This document shows positions 2-7,571 of a DNA stretch of 15,608 bases, piece by piece. A model generated the notes under the pieces. That model ran no database searches, had not been told where the DNA came from, and was given only the letters and a program-made list of their open reading frames with translations. The position numbers were made by a program, and so were the translations under genes. Source of the DNA: Nanobdellati archaeon (GTDB lineage Archaea > Nanobdellota > Nanobdellia > UBA10117). The stretch is taken from the NCBI GenBank assembly GCA_018304365.1, contig JAGVWH010000003.1, forward strand, positions 1-15,608. Direction: 5' to 3'. Numbering within the stretch: the first letter of the stretch is position 1; each line of letters starts with the position of its first letter.

Positions 2-196
2 AAAATTTATGTAGATATAAATGAAGAGGAATTAAGCAAGAAATTAAAACGCGAAGATATAGAAGATGCGATTAAACCCCAAGAAATAATTAAAGAACAG
101 CTTCCTGATGTCAGAATTAAATCCGGGAAAGTAAGGAGAAATAAAAGTGGTAAAAACAAAAAGTCAGCCAAAACAGCCAGAAAAAAGCGCAAGTAA
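2..196 (+). CDS. scpA: C-terminal end of an upstream gene, probably segregation and condensation protein A (partial)
   Basis: An open frame enters from before the window and ends at TAA 194-196, giving 64 residues. The visible part begins KIYVDINEEEL, continues with a charged helix-like stretch and ends in a tail very rich in Lys and Arg (GKVRRNKSGKNKK...RKKRK). The next gene is ScpB-like and overlaps it by 50 nt, and archaeal scpA and scpB are commonly adjacent. The opening 'xIYVDI' also resembles the last strand of the ScpA winged-helix domain. The ScpA name therefore rests mainly on context. The basic tail could be a nucleic-acid-binding extension. The diagnostic kleisin N-terminus lies outside the window. 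Confidence 0.5.
   Translation, partial: KIYVDINEEELSKKLKREDIEDAIKPQEIIKEQLPDVRIKSGKVRRNKSGKNKKSAKTARKKRK
135..138 (+). promoter_or_regulatory. Shine-Dalgarno GGAG deciding the GTG start of scpB
   Basis: GGAG in the context AAGGAGAAATAAAA ends 8 nt before GTG 147. It lies inside the upstream coding frame, so it supports translational coupling and the choice of GTG rather than the later in-frame ATG at 249. Confidence 0.7.
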
Positions 197-743
197 AATT
201 CAAGTTAATAGCGATTTGAAAGCAAAGCTAGAGGCAATATTATTTTGTATGCCAGAAGGAGTAAGTATACAGGTTTTAGCTCATAAAGTAAATTTGGGTT
301 TCACGTCTACTGTCAAGAATGCGCTTCAAGACTTGCAACAGGATTATGTAAAACGAGAAGCTGGATTGCAACTGCTTGATGCTGGCGATATTTGGAAACT
401 TAGGATTAAAGATGAGCATACAACCATCGTAAAAGAAGCAGCAGAGCCAGAATTCGATAGAGCAGTTTTAGAAACTTTAGCTTATATTGCGTGGAGAGGC
501 GGCTCAAGACAATGTGATGTTGTACGAGTGCGCTCCAACAAATCGTATACACATATTAAGACGCTCATTGAGAAAGGCTATGTAGAATCAAGTAAATCTG
601 GATTGAGCAAATGGCTGCAGCCAACAAAAAAATTCTATGAATATTTTGATATGAAACAGGGTGAGAAGCTTAAAACTCCGCAGGCGTTTGTAGAAGCTGC
701 CGCAGAACTGCCCGGAGTAATAGATATTAACTACTCTGAGTAG
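147..743 (+). CDS. scpB: Segregation and condensation protein B (ScpB-like)
   Basis: This 198-residue protein resembles archaeal ScpB, the tandem winged-helix partner that binds the ScpA kleisin of the SMC complex and helps organise and segregate the chromosome. The first ~30 residues are a basic linker. The ScpB core then starts with LKAKLEAILFCMPEGVSIQVLA, followed by a second winged helix with the typical segment RAVLETLAYIAWRGG (about residues 105-119), then RSNKSYTHIKTLIEKGYVE. The C-terminal ~30 residues form a short acidic tail. The start is GTG, chosen because a GGAG lies 8 nt upstream. The gene overlaps the preceding frame by 50 nt, suggesting an scpA-scpB operon. Family assignment is from remembered motifs; the membership of the upstream gene is inferred. 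Confidence 0.8.
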   Translation: MVKTKSQPKQPEKSASKIQVNSDLKAKLEAILFCMPEGVSIQVLAHKVNLGFTSTVKNALQDLQQDYVKREAGLQLLDAGDIWKLRIKDEHTTIVKEAAEPEFDRAVLETLAYIAWRGGSRQCDVVRVRSNKSYTHIKTLIEKGYVESSKSGLSKWLQPTKKFYEYFDMKQGEKLKTPQAFVEAAAELPGVIDINYSE

Positions 744-751
744 CGGAACAA

Positions 752-895
752 TATTTTACCGCGCTAGCGGTCCAGAAAATCCATTCTTCCGTGAAAGATT
801 TTATATACCGCGCTAGCGGTTCAGAAAATCCAGAAGATTTTATATACCGCGCTAGCGATCCAGAAAATTTATTCTACAAGTAAATTTTATATACC
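752..895 (+). repeat. Tandem array of TATA box plus GC palindrome units (array 1)
   Basis: The gap between scpB and the next gene is filled by repeated units. The 12-mer ATTTTATATACC occurs exactly at 798-809, 837-848 and 884-895, with a weaker relative near 751-760. The 14-mer ACCGCGCTAGCGGT occurs at 758-771 and 807-820, and as ACCGCGCTAGCGAT at 846-859. Each is followed by YCAGAAAATYYA. The 14-mer folds as ACCGC / GCTA loop / GCGGT. The last TATA copy, nearest the gene at 917, has no palindrome after it. The palindromes therefore sit where an operator between TATA box and transcription start would be expected. The core CGCGNTAGCG recurs in the array at 2507-2662. Confidence 0.85.
887..893 (+). 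promoter_or_regulatory. TATA box for the coiled-coil gene
   Basis: TTATATA is centred about 27 nt before ATG 917. This is the spacing expected for a leaderless archaeal transcript beginning at or next to the start codon. Confidence 0.6.
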
Positions 896-916
896 TAATT
901 ATAGCTTATCTATACT

Positions 917-1465
917 ATGGTTAGAAAAGTTTCTGGTAAAACCAAATTAAGTAAGCTCGAATCTGATGTAGCAAATATATGGAAAGAAATAAAGATTTTA
1001 AGCGAACAAGCAGTCAAACAAGATAATCTTCATAAGAAGTTTTTACAGGAACTCGCTATCAAAATAGATGAGTCGCATGAACATACTAAGAAATCTTCAA
1101 AAGAAATTTCAAGAGCAAATAAATTTATGCAAAATTTAAGTACCAAAGCAACAGCTGTTGAAAAAACACAAAGAGAAGTTAATCAATCCACAGCAGAAGT
1201 AGAAGATACAGCAAGAATTTTTATAAAACGATTTGATCAAATCAATGATAAAACTAATGCATATATTAGTAAGTTAGTTGATGTAATGAATCAAGTTGAA
1301 GCTCTCGAATCAAAAATGTCAAAGCTTAGCGATGCGCCAAATAAACTTAACGAAATACATTCGCAAGTTAGCAAGCACGAAGAGCATTTGCAGGAAGTTA
1401 AGGAAGCTCTTGATTCAATTCAGCAGTTCAAAAATAAACACGGCAGAACTATAATTATCGATTAG
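917..1465 (+). CDS. Coiled-coil protein of unknown function
   Basis: The 182-residue product is strongly charged and has heptad-like spacing of hydrophobic residues over nearly its whole length, for example KLSKLESDVANIWKEIKIL near the N-terminus and DVMNQVEALESKMSKLSDA near residues 121-140. There is no signal peptide, membrane segment or cysteine. A cytoplasmic, rod-like or oligomerising protein is likely. I do not recognise a family. Following scpAB it could be a chromosome-associated accessory protein, but that is only a guess from position. It has its own TATA box with leaderless spacing and lies behind the repeat array at 752-895. Its 3' end overlaps the 3' end of the minus-strand gene by 11 nt. 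Confidence 0.7.
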   Translation: MVRKVSGKTKLSKLESDVANIWKEIKILSEQAVKQDNLHKKFLQELAIKIDESHEHTKKSSKEISRANKFMQNLSTKATAVEKTQREVNQSTAEVEDTARIFIKRFDQINDKTNAYISKLVDVMNQVEALESKMSKLSDAPNKLNEIHSQVSKHEEHLQEVKEALDSIQQFKNKHGRTIIID

Positions 1466-2471
1466 ATTTTTTCCACTTTGCGTATTTCGTTACAGGTTTT
1501 TGACGTTCTCTATGCGATACAAACCATTTCAAACTTAAAATCCCAGTTAATATTATAATGGAAACTAAAAAGAAATATCCAGGGGATAATAATATATCGC
1601 GAGAACAGTCTGCGGGGCAATTGAATAAAGTTTCAGCATTCTCACAAATGTTATTTCCGCATAAGTTTGTTTCTCTGCAAACAGTTCCAATGCAGTATTG
1701 ATTTACCGGACAACCAGCATCGATACAGCAGTTTGCCGGCGTTTCTCCATTCTGCTGTATGCCATCGCCGCATACTGGATTTTGAATATTTATTGTTTCA
1801 GTTTTATTGTCGCCAACTATTGCGAATGTATGAAACTCGCCGGATTGAAATACGCTTTGATAATAATTATATTTACTATCTTCGTAAGTTTTTACAGCCG
1901 TAACAGATTCCCAGTCCTCTGCTGATTTCAGATAAACTAAATCAATAGTTTCTTGTTTTATTTGTTTATTAGCTATCCAGTTTTTATCTATCTTATATGC
2001 TATAGTGTAACGCGCAATATGTGTATTGTTTAAACTTGGCGTATAAGTTGATGTATTGAAATATTCGTAAATTACGCCTTTTGGGAGTTTTATTTTATTA
2101 ATTGCTGTTAGATTCGGATCAAAATGTATTGTAACATTTTTCGTATCTTTTAGCATTTTGAATGAAATATACATTAATGGAAATTGAGGCTGAGAACTAT
2201 TTATGAAATATACTTTATTTATTTCTAATTTATCAAAAAATATAGTTTGTCTGTAATTTGGAACGTCTGTTCTATCTCTTGTGTTTTCAGGACATTCACA
2301 CGTAGATTTACATCTGTCTAGACATAGCTCAGAATCCAAACCGTCACACTGCTCTCCTAATTCTTTTTCATCATTTCCGCAGACTGCGCTGGGGTCTACT
2401 GTATTAGCAGAAACTGGAATTGCAATAAGAGCAATTGCTATTAGTATGATTACAAACTTTAGTGGCCACAT
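1455..2471 (-). CDS. Secreted Cys-rich surface protein with pre-PGF-like domain and C-terminal membrane anchor
   Basis: The 338-residue protein starts with a signal peptide (hydrophobic ~4-20, cleavage near VSANT). Its first Cys cluster (residues ~31-60) contains CGNDEKELGEQCDG, a relative of the 'CGN...E..EQCD' surface repeats. Residues ~75-225 resemble the beta-rich pre-PGF domain of archaeal surface proteins, ending in SVFQSGEFHTFAIVG. Two further Cys modules follow, CGDGIQQNGETPANCC and CGNNICENAETLFNCPADC. A membrane helix (GYFFLVSIIILTGILSLKWF) and a basic cytoplasmic tail close the protein. N-x-S/T sites are present. The architecture points to a disulfide-stabilised cell-surface protein; its ligand is unknown. 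Its promoter is divergent from cca across the 52-bp repeats. Confidence 0.75.
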   Translation of the reverse strand: MWPLKFVIILIAIALIAIPVSANTVDPSAVCGNDEKELGEQCDGLDSELCLDRCKSTCECPENTRDRTDVPNYRQTIFFDKLEINKVYFINSSQPQFPLMYISFKMLKDTKNVTIHFDPNLTAINKIKLPKGVIYEYFNTSTYTPSLNNTHIARYTIAYKIDKNWIANKQIKQETIDLVYLKSAEDWESVTAVKTYEDSKYNYYQSVFQSGEFHTFAIVGDNKTETINIQNPVCGDGIQQNGETPANCCIDAGCPVNQYCIGTVCRETNLCGNNICENAETLFNCPADCSRDILLSPGYFFLVSIIILTGILSLKWFVSHRERQKPVTKYAKWKKSNR

Positions 2472-2493
2472 AATTTAGTATAACTTCTTCAGA

Positions 2494-2499
2494 TTTTAA
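2494..2499 (-). promoter_or_regulatory. TATA-like box for the Cys-rich surface gene
   Basis: On the minus strand the sequence reads CTTAAAATCT, centred about 25 nt before the ATG at 2471. This fits a leaderless transcript and is similar to the TTAAAAGATA box before the regulator gene at 7571. Confidence 0.5.
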
Positions 2500-2506
2500 G
2501 GCTTTT

Positions 2507-2662
2507 CTCGCGATAGCGAGATTGACTAATTTACGTTGCGCATTAAATTAGGCTATATCTCGCGATAGCGAGATTCACTAATTTACATTGTATATTGAAT
2601 TAGGCTATATCTCGCGATAGCGAGATTCACTAATTTACATTGTGTATTGAATTAGGCCTTAT
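2507..2662 (+). repeat. Three tandem 52-bp repeats with paired inverted repeats (array 2)
   Basis: Units are 2507-2558, 2559-2610 and 2611-2662, exactly 52 bp each and nearly identical. Every unit begins with CTCGCGATAGCGAG, which can fold as CTCGC / GATA loop / GCGAG. It also holds a second dyad, CTAATTTA...TAAATTAG in unit 1 and CTAATTTA...TGAATTAG in units 2 and 3, so the single stem difference keeps pairing as U-A or U-G. The array occupies the divergent promoter region between the surface-protein gene (minus) and cca (plus), and shares the core CGCGNTAGCG with array 1. It could be an operator array or an RNA element. Confidence 0.9.
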
Positions 2663-2673
2663 CTTAATTAGAC

Positions 2674-2680
2674 TTATATA
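2674..2680 (+). promoter_or_regulatory. TATA box of the cca-PAP2 unit
   Basis: TTATATA is centred at 2677. The distance to ATG 2702 is 25 nt, the leaderless spacing seen at other genes here; ATG 2693 would be only 16 nt away. The box therefore favours 2702 as the start. Confidence 0.55.
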
Positions 2681-2701
2681 GTAATTTACCCTATGAATTT
2701 T

Positions 2702-3940
2702 ATGGCTCTGACTATATCAGCGAAAGCGAAAGAACTTATATCGCCATCAAAAGAAGAAGAAAAGAAAATATACGAGGTAGTGTTAGAGGTTTTGCAAGAC
2801 GTTTCAGAGAGTTTGAAAAAACATAACATTCGAGCTAAAATATTAGTTGGAGGTTCTGTCGGAAAACATACGTGGCTTTCAGGCATAAGTGATATAGATT
2901 TTTTTATAGCGTTTAATTATGCATTGTACAAAGATAAATCAGCTGAACTTTCAGATTACGCTGAGAAAGTTTTACGCAAATACAGACCAACGAGGCTAAA
3001 AGGCAGCAGAGATTATTTTTCTGCTAAATATAAGGGTTTTGATTTAGAATTTGTTCCGGTTTTAGAAATTAGTGATATTGGCAAAGCATTGAATATTACT
3101 GATGCAAGCCCGCTGCACGTTTATTATGTAGCTAACAAAGTTGCAGAGAATAAAAATTTAGCAGCAGAAATAAGATTGGCAAAACAATTTTTTAAAAGCG
3201 CGGATGCTTATGGCGCAGAGTCTTATATTTCTGGATTTTCTGGATATGTAATAGAGATTTTAGTTCTACATTACGGAAGCTTTGCTAAATTAATTAAAGC
3301 CGCGAGTAAATGGAAGCATCGTAGAATTATCGATACAGAAAAACATCATAAAAATGCTTTAGAAAGTTTGAATATAGCTAAACTTGATAGTCCTTTAATC
3401 ATTGTTGACCCAATAGATTATCATAGAAATGCCGCAGCAGCATTAAGAAGTAAAAGATTTGCAAATATCATATCTCACAGTAAGTCTTATCTTAAAAAAC
3501 CAAGTTTAAAATTTTTTGAAGTAAAGCATTTCTCGCCGTCTAAATTAAAGGGGAAAAATACAATAATATTAAGCACCAAGCCAATTAAAAAAACACAGGC
3601 GGTCGCTGGTGATGTAATTGTTAGCAAATTTAACAAAATAAGGAGGGTTTTTTCAGAGCACGATTTCGATTTGAACAGTGCCAATTGGTATTGGAATGGT
3701 AACTTAAATGAAAATGCATATTATATTTTTAGATTTTCGGAAATGAATTTGCCAAAGAAAAGAAAACTTACGGGTCCGCCGAAACACGTGCATAAAAGAT
3801 ACATAGCCGCATTTACGCGCAAATGGCGCGGAGCTAGATTAATTAATGATAGGTATTTTGCAGAAACAAGAAGAAAATATACAAATGCAAATCAATTTTT
3901 AAAAGTAATACTGAAAGATAAAACTATTAGGAAGGTATAA
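2702..3940 (+). CDS. cca: CCA-adding enzyme (archaeal class I tRNA nucleotidyltransferase)
   Basis: The enzyme adds or repairs the 3' CCA end of tRNAs. The class I nucleotidyltransferase signature is clear: LVGGSVGKHTWLSGISDIDFF near residues 48-68, providing the GGS..K.T motif and the two metal-binding Asp of SDID. The third carboxylate region reads DLEFVPV, so the usual Asp appears to be Glu. At 412 residues from this start it is slightly shorter than common archaeal CCA enzymes but has all expected regions, including the C-terminal basic tail-domain area. An ATG nine bases upstream (2693) is also in frame, but TATA spacing favours 2702. It shares TAATG with the following PAP2 gene, suggesting coupled translation. 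Confidence 0.9.
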   Translation: MALTISAKAKELISPSKEEEKKIYEVVLEVLQDVSESLKKHNIRAKILVGGSVGKHTWLSGISDIDFFIAFNYALYKDKSAELSDYAEKVLRKYRPTRLKGSRDYFSAKYKGFDLEFVPVLEISDIGKALNITDASPLHVYYVANKVAENKNLAAEIRLAKQFFKSADAYGAESYISGFSGYVIEILVLHYGSFAKLIKAASKWKHRRIIDTEKHHKNALESLNIAKLDSPLIIVDPIDYHRNAAAALRSKRFANIISHSKSYLKKPSLKFFEVKHFSPSKLKGKNTIILSTKPIKKTQAVAGDVIVSKFNKIRRVFSEHDFDLNSANWYWNGNLNENAYYIFRFSEMNLPKKRKLTGPPKHVHKRYIAAFTRKWRGARLINDRYFAETRRKYTNANQFLKVILKDKTIRKV

Positions 3941-6718: not shown

Positions 6719-6740
6719 TTGAAAACCTACAGGTTTTCAA
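6719..6740. terminator. Hairpin terminator, first of two
   Basis: TTGAAAACCT / AC / AGGTTTTCAA forms a perfect 10-bp stem 28 nt after the stop codon at 6690, between convergent genes. It can serve either direction. Confidence 0.55.
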
Positions 6741-6786: not shown

Positions 6787-7074
6787 TTATGCAATTACCA
6801 CCAGTCTTACTTTGCTCTTGAGCTCTGGACTTGCCCACTGGCATAGATTTTCTAAAGTGACATCGCTTAACTCATTGCACCTGATGTTTATTTTTGTCCC
6901 CACCTTATCAACGTTGCAGTAGTCTGGTTTTTCTATTACCGCTGTACTTAATCCGGTCGTTAAACCTACGTGATTGCCGACAAAAAATCCGACGCCAAGA
7001 GTCACTAACATACCAATCATCACAATGGCTACTAAATGTCCCATCACAAGCTCGTATTTCTTTTCTTCTATCAT
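6787..7074 (-). CDS. Small single-pass membrane protein
   Basis: The 95-residue product has a short charged N-terminus (MIEEKKYELVMG), one strong hydrophobic segment (residues ~11-33, LVAIVMIGMLVTLGVGFFVGN) and a ~60-residue tail with three cysteines (in DYCNV, IRCNE and NLCQW). By the lysine-rich N-terminus the tail may face outside. No family is recognised. Its ATG overlaps the stop of the winged-helix gene in ATGA, and GAGGA lies 6 nt upstream, so the two are translationally coupled. The pairing suggests the membrane protein and the regulator act in one process, possibly signalling from the envelope; that is inference. Confidence 0.65.
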   Translation of the reverse strand: MIEEKKYELVMGHLVAIVMIGMLVTLGVGFFVGNHVGLTTGLSTAVIEKPDYCNVDKVGTKINIRCNELSDVTLENLCQWASPELKSKVRLVVIA

Positions 7075-7571
7075 TTTTTATCCTCGTCTTCCTTTTTCCA
7101 TTTAATCGCAACTTTAGTATTCAGGAATTTTAGGAGATTGAATTTATCAACTTCGTATTTTACTTCCCTGCCGTCCGTTTCCCGTTTTATTAGCCCCTCA
7201 TTTTCCAGCTCTCTGATTTGCTTGGAAGTAAACGATTTATCAGTGTCAAGAATTTTAGATAGCTCTTTGTTCTGATGGTTTCCTAACATAATAGCAGTTA
7301 GAATTTTCATTCGTCTTACGAGATTATTCAACTCTCGTCGGCCTTGGTCGAGCTCCTCTGGAGTTTTAGTTAAAATATCATGAGCAGTAAGAACTTTTGT
7401 ATTACTGCTATTGCTCATTTCTGGCTGTTTGTAAACTACATCAATATGTGGTTTTGATTCGAAATCGTTTTCTTTAGTAGGTATTTTTAGGACTAATTTT
7501 ACAGATTTTGCAGAGGTTTTAGCTTTACACTTTCGTTTAGCTTTATCAGCCCTGTTATTATCCTCAACCAT
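7071..7571 (-). CDS. Winged-helix transcriptional regulator
   Basis: The 166-residue protein has a ~55-residue basic and disordered N-terminus, then a MarR/ArsR-like winged helix-turn-helix. RRMKILTAIMLGNHQNKELSK (about residues 86-106) forms the first helices, DTDKSFTSKQIRELENEGLIK the recognition helix region, and KRETDGREVKYEVDKF the beta wing. The end is a charged tail (KWKKEDEDKK). No metal-binding cysteines of ArsR type are seen in the domain. It is transcribed away from the S-layer gene, with only 144 bp between the two starts, so it is a candidate local regulator of that gene and of itself. A TTAAAA box about 26 nt before ATG fits a leaderless transcript. Confidence 0.78.
   Translation of the reverse strand: MVEDNNRADKAKRKCKAKTSAKSVKLVLKIPTKENDFESKPHIDVVYKQPEMSNSSNTKVLTAHDILTKTPEELDQGRRELNNLVRRMKILTAIMLGNHQNKELSKILDTDKSFTSKQIRELENEGLIKRETDGREVKYEVDKFNLLKFLNTKVAIKWKKEDEDKK

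Follow-up and report, generated by a model that had tools for sequence, protein, structure and literature searches.

What process placed two sets of closely matching palindromes in neighboring intergenic spacers of a Nanobdellati archaeon, and do they form one functional family? The stretch analyzed here, which we call the window, is the whole of contig JAGVWH010000003.1 (C2; 15,608 bases), part of an assembly (G000) that comprises 290,440 bases in 25 contigs and is estimated to be 52% complete. Two arrays of three hairpin units each, array 1 and array 2, lie near its start, both between open reading frames. A first-pass annotation, made from the sequence alone, had described them as a palindrome family with unrelated flanks whose compensated outer base pairs reflect selection for dyad symmetry, in either an operator or an RNA hairpin. 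We favor, with about even confidence, a different explanation, namely that the arrays are lineage-specific, locally amplified intergenic hairpin repeats similar to repetitive extragenic palindromic (REP) elements or minisatellites. Comparisons were made with one other genome of the genus (G001), with a genome of another genus in the same family (G002), and with the further genomes stated below.

Each unit of arrays 1 and 2 consists of a G+C-rich palindrome and a second, A+T-rich dyad, located as follows.

758..771: array 1, palindrome 1, ACCGC-GCTA-GCGGT
807..820: array 1, palindrome 2, same sequence as palindrome 1
846..859: array 1, palindrome 3, ACCGCGCTAGCGAT, one pair broken
776..802: array 1, unit 1, second dyad (AAAATC ... 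GATTTT)
825..841: array 1, unit 2, second dyad (AAAATC ... GATTTT)
864..888: array 1, unit 3, second dyad (AAAATTTA ... TAAATTTT), overlapping a TATA-like box
2507..2520: array 2, palindrome 1, CTCGC-GATA-GCGAG
2559..2572: array 2, palindrome 2
2611..2624: array 2, palindrome 3
2526..2551: array 2, unit 1, second dyad (CTAATTTA ... TAAATTAG)
2499..2664: array 2 as a tandem repeat of period 52, 3.2 copies, 90% match (Tandem Repeats Finder)

The stem-loop palindromes span 14 to 18 bases. Both arrays run head to tail in the same orientation, 1.7 kb apart, with palindrome spacings of 49 and 39 bases in array 1 and of 52 and 52 in array 2. The claim of three copies per array held in that all six were located, but only two array 1 copies read ACCGCGCTAGCGGT; the third loses its second pair because it ends in CGAT. 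The array 2 stem extends outward, reaching 6 bp in copy 1 and, in the other two copies, 7 bp (ATCTCGC/GCGAGAT). Among the second dyads, unit 3 of array 1 has a T-A pair at one place where units 1 and 2 have C-G, and the array 2 dyad recurs at 2578-2603 and 2630-2655 with one T-G replacing T-A. Unit identity within each array is 61 to 89% over the whole unit, and array 1, with three copies, gave no Tandem Repeats Finder report. Folded as single-stranded DNA, the six units gave z scores of -2.6 to -5.2.

The arrays are not random features of the window. The core CGCGNTAGCG has 6 matches in the window, where 1.07 would be expected with 1 mismatch allowed and none of 200 shuffles reached 6. The same 6 are the only matches in the entire assembly, all within arrays 1 and 2, so the genome-wide search that the first-pass annotation had proposed led to no further promoters and revealed no regulon. 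When 288,770 bases of G000 were scanned under a strict rule for recurrence of a single hairpin within 250 bases, 4 clusters emerged (array 1, array 2, a third intergenic array at locus L073, and a weak pair inside the S-layer gene); three Markov-shuffled copies of that genome had none. Between arrays 1 and 2, the repeat bodies are unrelated in sequence, as had been claimed, with an alignment no better than that of shuffles (91 of 500 reach the score); the claim overlooks that both bodies carry a second A+T-rich dyad.

Arrays 1 and 2 have 9 of 10 core positions in common, which leads to the question of whether two unrelated hairpin arrays could share a core by chance. Pairs of distinct G000 hairpins with four-base loops were compared on either strand for agreement at no fewer than 9 of 10 core positions, the array 1/2 pair being included in the counts. 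Such agreement occurred in 9 of 2,556 pairs with at least 3 G+C in the 5-bp arm, in 2 of 231 pairs with at least 4, and in 712 of 132,870 pairs without a G+C limit. The shared core is therefore uncommon, at ∼0.3 to 0.9% of pairs, and it is unusual but not decisive because it was spotted after the fact, when many pairs could have been picked. Both arrays are triplicated, in the same orientation and only 1.7 kb apart, and we consider a purely chance resemblance very unlikely.

Comparison with the other genome of the genus suggests that the arrays are specific to one lineage. G001 retains scpB, the coiled-coil-like gene (60% identical), and the gene of the CCA-adding enzyme (65%) in the same order, and neither of its spacers (44 bases after scpB and 29 in the next, counted by eye) holds an array. 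The membrane-protein gene that lies between the arrays in the window is missing at the G001 locus, with only a weak 34-residue match elsewhere in that genome. In G002, a relative of the membrane protein (31% identical) is encoded near the CCA gene, from which it is separated by another gene and a tRNA-like stretch; no repeat was reported at this place. A search of 55 other genomes for the core returned 86 matches in 26 of them, 29 of which were examined as loci. The first outer pair was present in 12 of the 29 and both outer pairs in 4, and 24 of the 29 fall within open frames that are 100 codons or longer; no palindrome family is thus seen at these loci. The string CTCGCGATAGCGAG is absent from all 17 other members of the order that were searched. 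A possible G001 counterpart of array 2, TACTCGCTAAATAGCGAGTA at L092:10774, was rejected: it lies between the CCA gene's neighbor and dnaG and is not an orthologue, and its position between convergent genes, beside a T-run, makes it terminator-like by eye.

Arrays of the same design occur in both genomes of the genus. The third array of G000 (L073:10351-10460, from the hairpin-cluster scan) consists of two copies of ATCGCTGATTCGTCAGCGAT and a decayed third (by eye). It lies a short distance upstream of the TATA-like box that precedes a tRNA-Asp gene, and its bodies resemble those of arrays 1 and 2 no more than shuffles do (332 and 163 of 500 reach the scores). A looser scan found 3 intergenic clusters in G000 (288,770 bases) and 5 in G001 (437,743 bases), which also had 1 coding cluster. 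Elsewhere it gave none in 418,665 bases of G002, 1 in 120,000 of G003, none in 100,000 of G004, and none in 102,640 of the others; one shuffle of each genome set gave none. The scan rule was fixed after the arrays were known and loosened after G001 had been inspected, and for this reason the 8-to-1 surplus of intergenic clusters in the genus (8 in 726,513 bases versus 1 in 741,305) is descriptive only.

Several G001 arrays carry two dyads per unit (by eye), and cores are re-used there with differing flanks: CAAATCAGAGATTTG in L104 and L132, CTAATC-N4-GATTAG in L112, L129, and L131, and GGAATTACAAAGTAATTCC in L126 and L114. None of the array cores searched is common to G000 and G001, apart from a single CGCGNTAGCG in G001, inside a long open frame. 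At two of the G001 loci (L126:8010-8210 and L114:3983-4141), we also observed that the last 18 bases of the tRNA-Glu 3′ end recur 183 and 141 bases away, with GGAATTACAAAGTAATTCC hairpin units in between, three at one place and one plus a decayed one (by eye) at the other.

The presence in G001 of arrays with the same design and other sequences argues for an array-making process rather than for the site of one protein. Under the amplification reading, a promoter-near segment with two stem-loops, one G+C-rich of 14 to 18 bases and one A+T-rich, would have undergone local amplification into three tandem units, with hairpin-promoted slippage or template switching during replication as the likeliest cause, and the G+C-rich hairpin core would have been re-used at a second site 1.7 kb off. 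The two cores would then share a common source, and the arrays would behave as REP, bacterial interspersed mosaic element (BIME), or minisatellite DNA, multiplying, varying in copy number, and turning over between species, with no conserved regulatory role and with any effect on neighboring promoters being secondary. A single template-switching event can yield perfect stems together with compensated pairs (PMC8794818). The outer pairs that are compensated between the arrays are therefore not evidence of selection on their own, as template switching gives an equal picture: the dyads are real, but the inference of selection drew on two pairs only, between bodies that do not align.

The setting of the arrays bears on the alternatives. 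Genes identified in the window include scpB, the CCA-adding enzyme, PAP2, a Toprim (DnaG-like) gene, and the S-layer gene; those near the arrays, their TATA-like boxes (by eye plus the genome-wide peak described below), and a regulator gene are as follows.

147..743, plus strand: scpB (SMC_ScpB, PF04079), family match
886..892, plus strand: TATA-like box of the coiled-coil gene, 31 bases before the ATG at 917
917..1465, plus strand: coiled-coil-like protein of 182 amino acids (coiled coil by eye), no Pfam family, kept in G001
1455..2471, minus strand: predicted surface/membrane protein of 338 amino acids (by eye), no Pfam family, absent at the matching place in G001
2494..2499, minus strand: TATA-like box (TTAAAA) of the membrane-protein gene, 28 bases before its ATG
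2674..2680, plus strand: TATA-like box (TTATATA) of the CCA-enzyme gene, 28 bases before the ATG at 2702
2693..3940, plus strand: archaeal CCA-adding enzyme, start more likely at 2702
7071-7571: MarR/ArsR-like regulator gene

Array 1 occupies the 173-base spacer between scpB and the coiled-coil-like gene and begins 14 bases past the scpB stop, while array 2 occupies the spacer between the membrane-protein-like gene (minus strand) and the CCA-enzyme gene (plus strand). The two genes between the arrays are convergent. TATA-like hexamers peak 25 to 32 bases before G000 starts (63 of 188 hits in the 80 bases upstream of 213 starts), which points to mostly leaderless genes, and by this genome-wide measure arrays 1 and 2 sit at core promoters of the leaderless type. 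The CCA-enzyme start is probably 2702 rather than 2693, because its TATA-like box then lies 28 bases upstream, about the same distance as in the G001 gene (by eye). The string TTTTATATACC of the coiled-coil-gene box also closes units 1 and 2 of array 1 (799-809 and 838-848). The proposed link to promoters thus stands for both arrays in the window, but the sites are not kept at the G001 coiled-coil and CCA promoters.

Several observations count against local amplification as the full explanation. The palindrome is less variable than the rest of the unit in each array (1 of 14 versus 7 of 25 variable columns in array 1, P = 0.127; 0 of 14 versus 8 of 38 in array 2, P = 0.065), and the combined P of 0.048 is a weak hint of selection, which lends slight support to the idea of the palindrome as the functional part. 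The shared core points in the same direction. In each of the three G000 intergenic arrays (1, 2, and that of tRNA-Asp), the end lies at a TATA-like box or just short of one, as judged by eye. The third array is not wholly private in sequence, since 21 bases at its edge match G001 L115:7361-7381 at 20 of 21 positions, at a place where the second arm and the tandem copies are both missing. The units of arrays 1 and 2 have no dispersed copies in their own assembly, unlike true REPs. One large REP class is tied to a tyrosine transposase (PMC3733652), and a Y1 transposase was found in neither of the two genus genomes (controls positive in 5 of 14; own genome 52% complete).

These observations bring in the main rival, in which the arrays are operators: a dimeric DNA-binding protein would read 5-bp half-sites about one helical turn apart, with array 1 controlling the coiled-coil gene and array 2 the membrane-protein and CCA-enzyme genes, all co-regulated. 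Five of the six copies do have perfect half-sites of 5 to 7 bp with a 4-bp center, the core is shared by arrays with otherwise unrelated bodies, array 2 is flanked by the TATA-like boxes of two divergent genes (by eye) while array 1 ends at a third, and the genes between the arrays face each other. The lower variability of the palindrome and the shared core keep this reading alive. It is weakened by the lack of any other site in the incomplete assembly, by the absence of CTCGCGATAGCGAG from the rest of the order as searched, by the G001 coiled-coil and CCA genes, which are present without sites, and by the one array 1 site in three that is broken. The MarR/ArsR-like regulator in the window is 70% identical in G001, where these genes have no sites. 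We regard operator arrays as possible, though on balance doubtful. In a further variant, a process of the genus would pick promoter-proximal stem-loop pairs, triplicate them, and re-use one core, so that each species would gain private palindromic upstream sites; in the window species this would amount to a fresh regulatory circuit, with one new type of site before a convergent gene pair and a housekeeping gene. This proposal is speculative, and we think it rather unlikely.

The other function proposed at first, an RNA hairpin, would have transcripts of the spacers fold into tandem stem-loops that end, protect, or process RNA, for example at the 3′ end of scpB mRNA, and the start of array 1 so close to the scpB stop fits this. 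The array regions fold at z = -6.1 (the 203 nucleotides of array 2) and -2.9 (array 1), and the T-A to T-G change between array 2 units keeps pairing only in plus-strand RNA. Against this, the fold scores follow equally from the DNA dyads, and one array 2 unit folded as RNA (in the Tandem Repeats Finder phase) gave z = -1.15 only. Little transcription would be expected of array 2, between divergent promoters of the probable leaderless type. The window holds no Rfam family at the gathering score, and neither array has a terminator-like site, the only one found being at 1757, inside a gene (0.9 expected by chance). An RNA role for the arrays therefore seems unlikely to us.

The position of scpB at 147-743, next to clustered palindromes that are found nowhere else in the assembly, could also suggest a site that resembles a centromere or an origin and is recognized by a protein of segregation or replication. 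A ParB-parS centromere was not supported, as no ParB_N domain was detected in G000 or G001 (E ≤ 0.001; controls positive in 10 of 14; both assemblies incomplete). Cdc6_C was found in G001 only, on contig C11, while scpB lies on C6, and the arrays are absent beside scpB in G001. A role of this kind is extremely improbable. A link to viruses was discarded, with 0 matches of two exact unit patterns in viral_contigs.

Other repeats and hairpins occur in the same genomes. A separate dispersed hairpin family has the structure outer stem - G - CAG - CG - YY - U - inner stem-loop - RR - CUG - GU - outer stem and was located at the following places.

G000: L066:2196-2289, L070:3558, L072:9540-9706, L074:127, L079:11516, L081:4332-4476
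G000, further copies: L087:2822 and 14933, L089:1139-1232, L090:3738
G001: L132:4494
G002: L141:11752, L153:9167 and 15000, L162:11004

Across 20 aligned copies, 92.1% of cells pair (shuffles 77.7%) and 38 cells are changed on both sides (shuffles 13.8; 0 of 500 reach 38), while the further pair types are less telling (18 versus 15.4; 56 of 500 reach). Because the copies on which the structure was written by hand had been collected with a pattern in which part of the core is fixed, the evidence lies in the variable pairs only. With strict filters, a family model built on these copies matches 16 copies in G000, 1 in G001, 5 in G002, 3 in G004, 2 in G006, and 1 in G010, with 8 of the 28 matched copies outside the training set; at E ≤ 0.01 it matches nothing in the remaining 50 of the 56 genomes, and it has no match in the window. 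The 16 copies versus 1 within one genus suggest a spreading element. Copies at L072, L089, and L090 adjoin tRNA genes and others lie just before start codons (by eye), some in tandem, and the loci scanned have no Rfam match except tRNA.

Another dispersed sequence, GCTGGGCCCAGC with further flanking stems, occurs at L074:12432, L075:11659, L087:7907, and L089:2712 in G000 and at L105:6808 in G001; by eye, it comprises two back-to-back hairpins based on CCC/GGG. At L079:6904-7115, three 68-base tandem copies (95% match) lie just before a gene start, each with a frame of ∼23 codons whose stop overlaps the next start (by eye; the translation shows one copy, MIKQNLIRKYRFADHFNHMRFTK). Within the window, TTGAAAACCTACAGGTTTTCAA at 6719-6740 lies between convergent genes and is terminator-like by position, with similar sequences at L072:9263 and elsewhere. 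Among the four-base loops of 6-bp intergenic stems, T-N-C-G accounts for 6 of 53 in G000 and 5 of 63 in G001, and its reverse complement for 1 and 3, a hint that some intergenic stems of these genomes act as RNA.

It is common to regard compensated changes between two copies as proving that a stem or operator is functional. The arrays caution against reading covariation from two loci, as the pattern here accompanies signs of local amplification and species turnover. If the arrays did act on promoters, they would illustrate how new regulatory sites are gained in streamlined DPANN genomes.

Among known systems, REP elements have as their defining features that they are extragenic, palindromic, short, similar to one another, and present in multiple copies, and short intergenic palindrome clusters of this type have been reported in bacteria and archaea (PMC12306157). 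The literature surveyed, as far as its available text extends, holds no description of such arrays in DPANN archaea, and one may exist elsewhere. Arrays 1 and 2 resemble REPs and BIMEs as clustered short intergenic palindromes able to form stem-loops. They differ from REPs in not being dispersed, with 6 core copies in two neighboring places only, and from BIMEs, which alternate in orientation (PMC2817692), in running head to tail. Clustered regularly interspaced short palindromic repeats (CRISPR) also combine tandem arrangement with palindromic repeats; they were ruled out because the bodies within each array are repeats of each other (at the unit identities given above) and not unique spacers, in only three copies. 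Operators of archaeal dimeric regulators are likewise palindromes at promoters, upstream of or adjoining TATA-like boxes, whereas the arrays lack a visible regulon and are not kept in G001. Minisatellites offer the closest structural label, as both array 2 (52 bases, 3.2 copies) and array 1 (three copies) consist of tandem units within 10 to 100 bp. The arrays are most reminiscent in layout of variable-number tandem repeats of the mycobacterial interspersed repetitive unit type, with intergenic tandem units of ∼50 bp in about three copies, and are set apart from these by the construction of every unit from two dyads.

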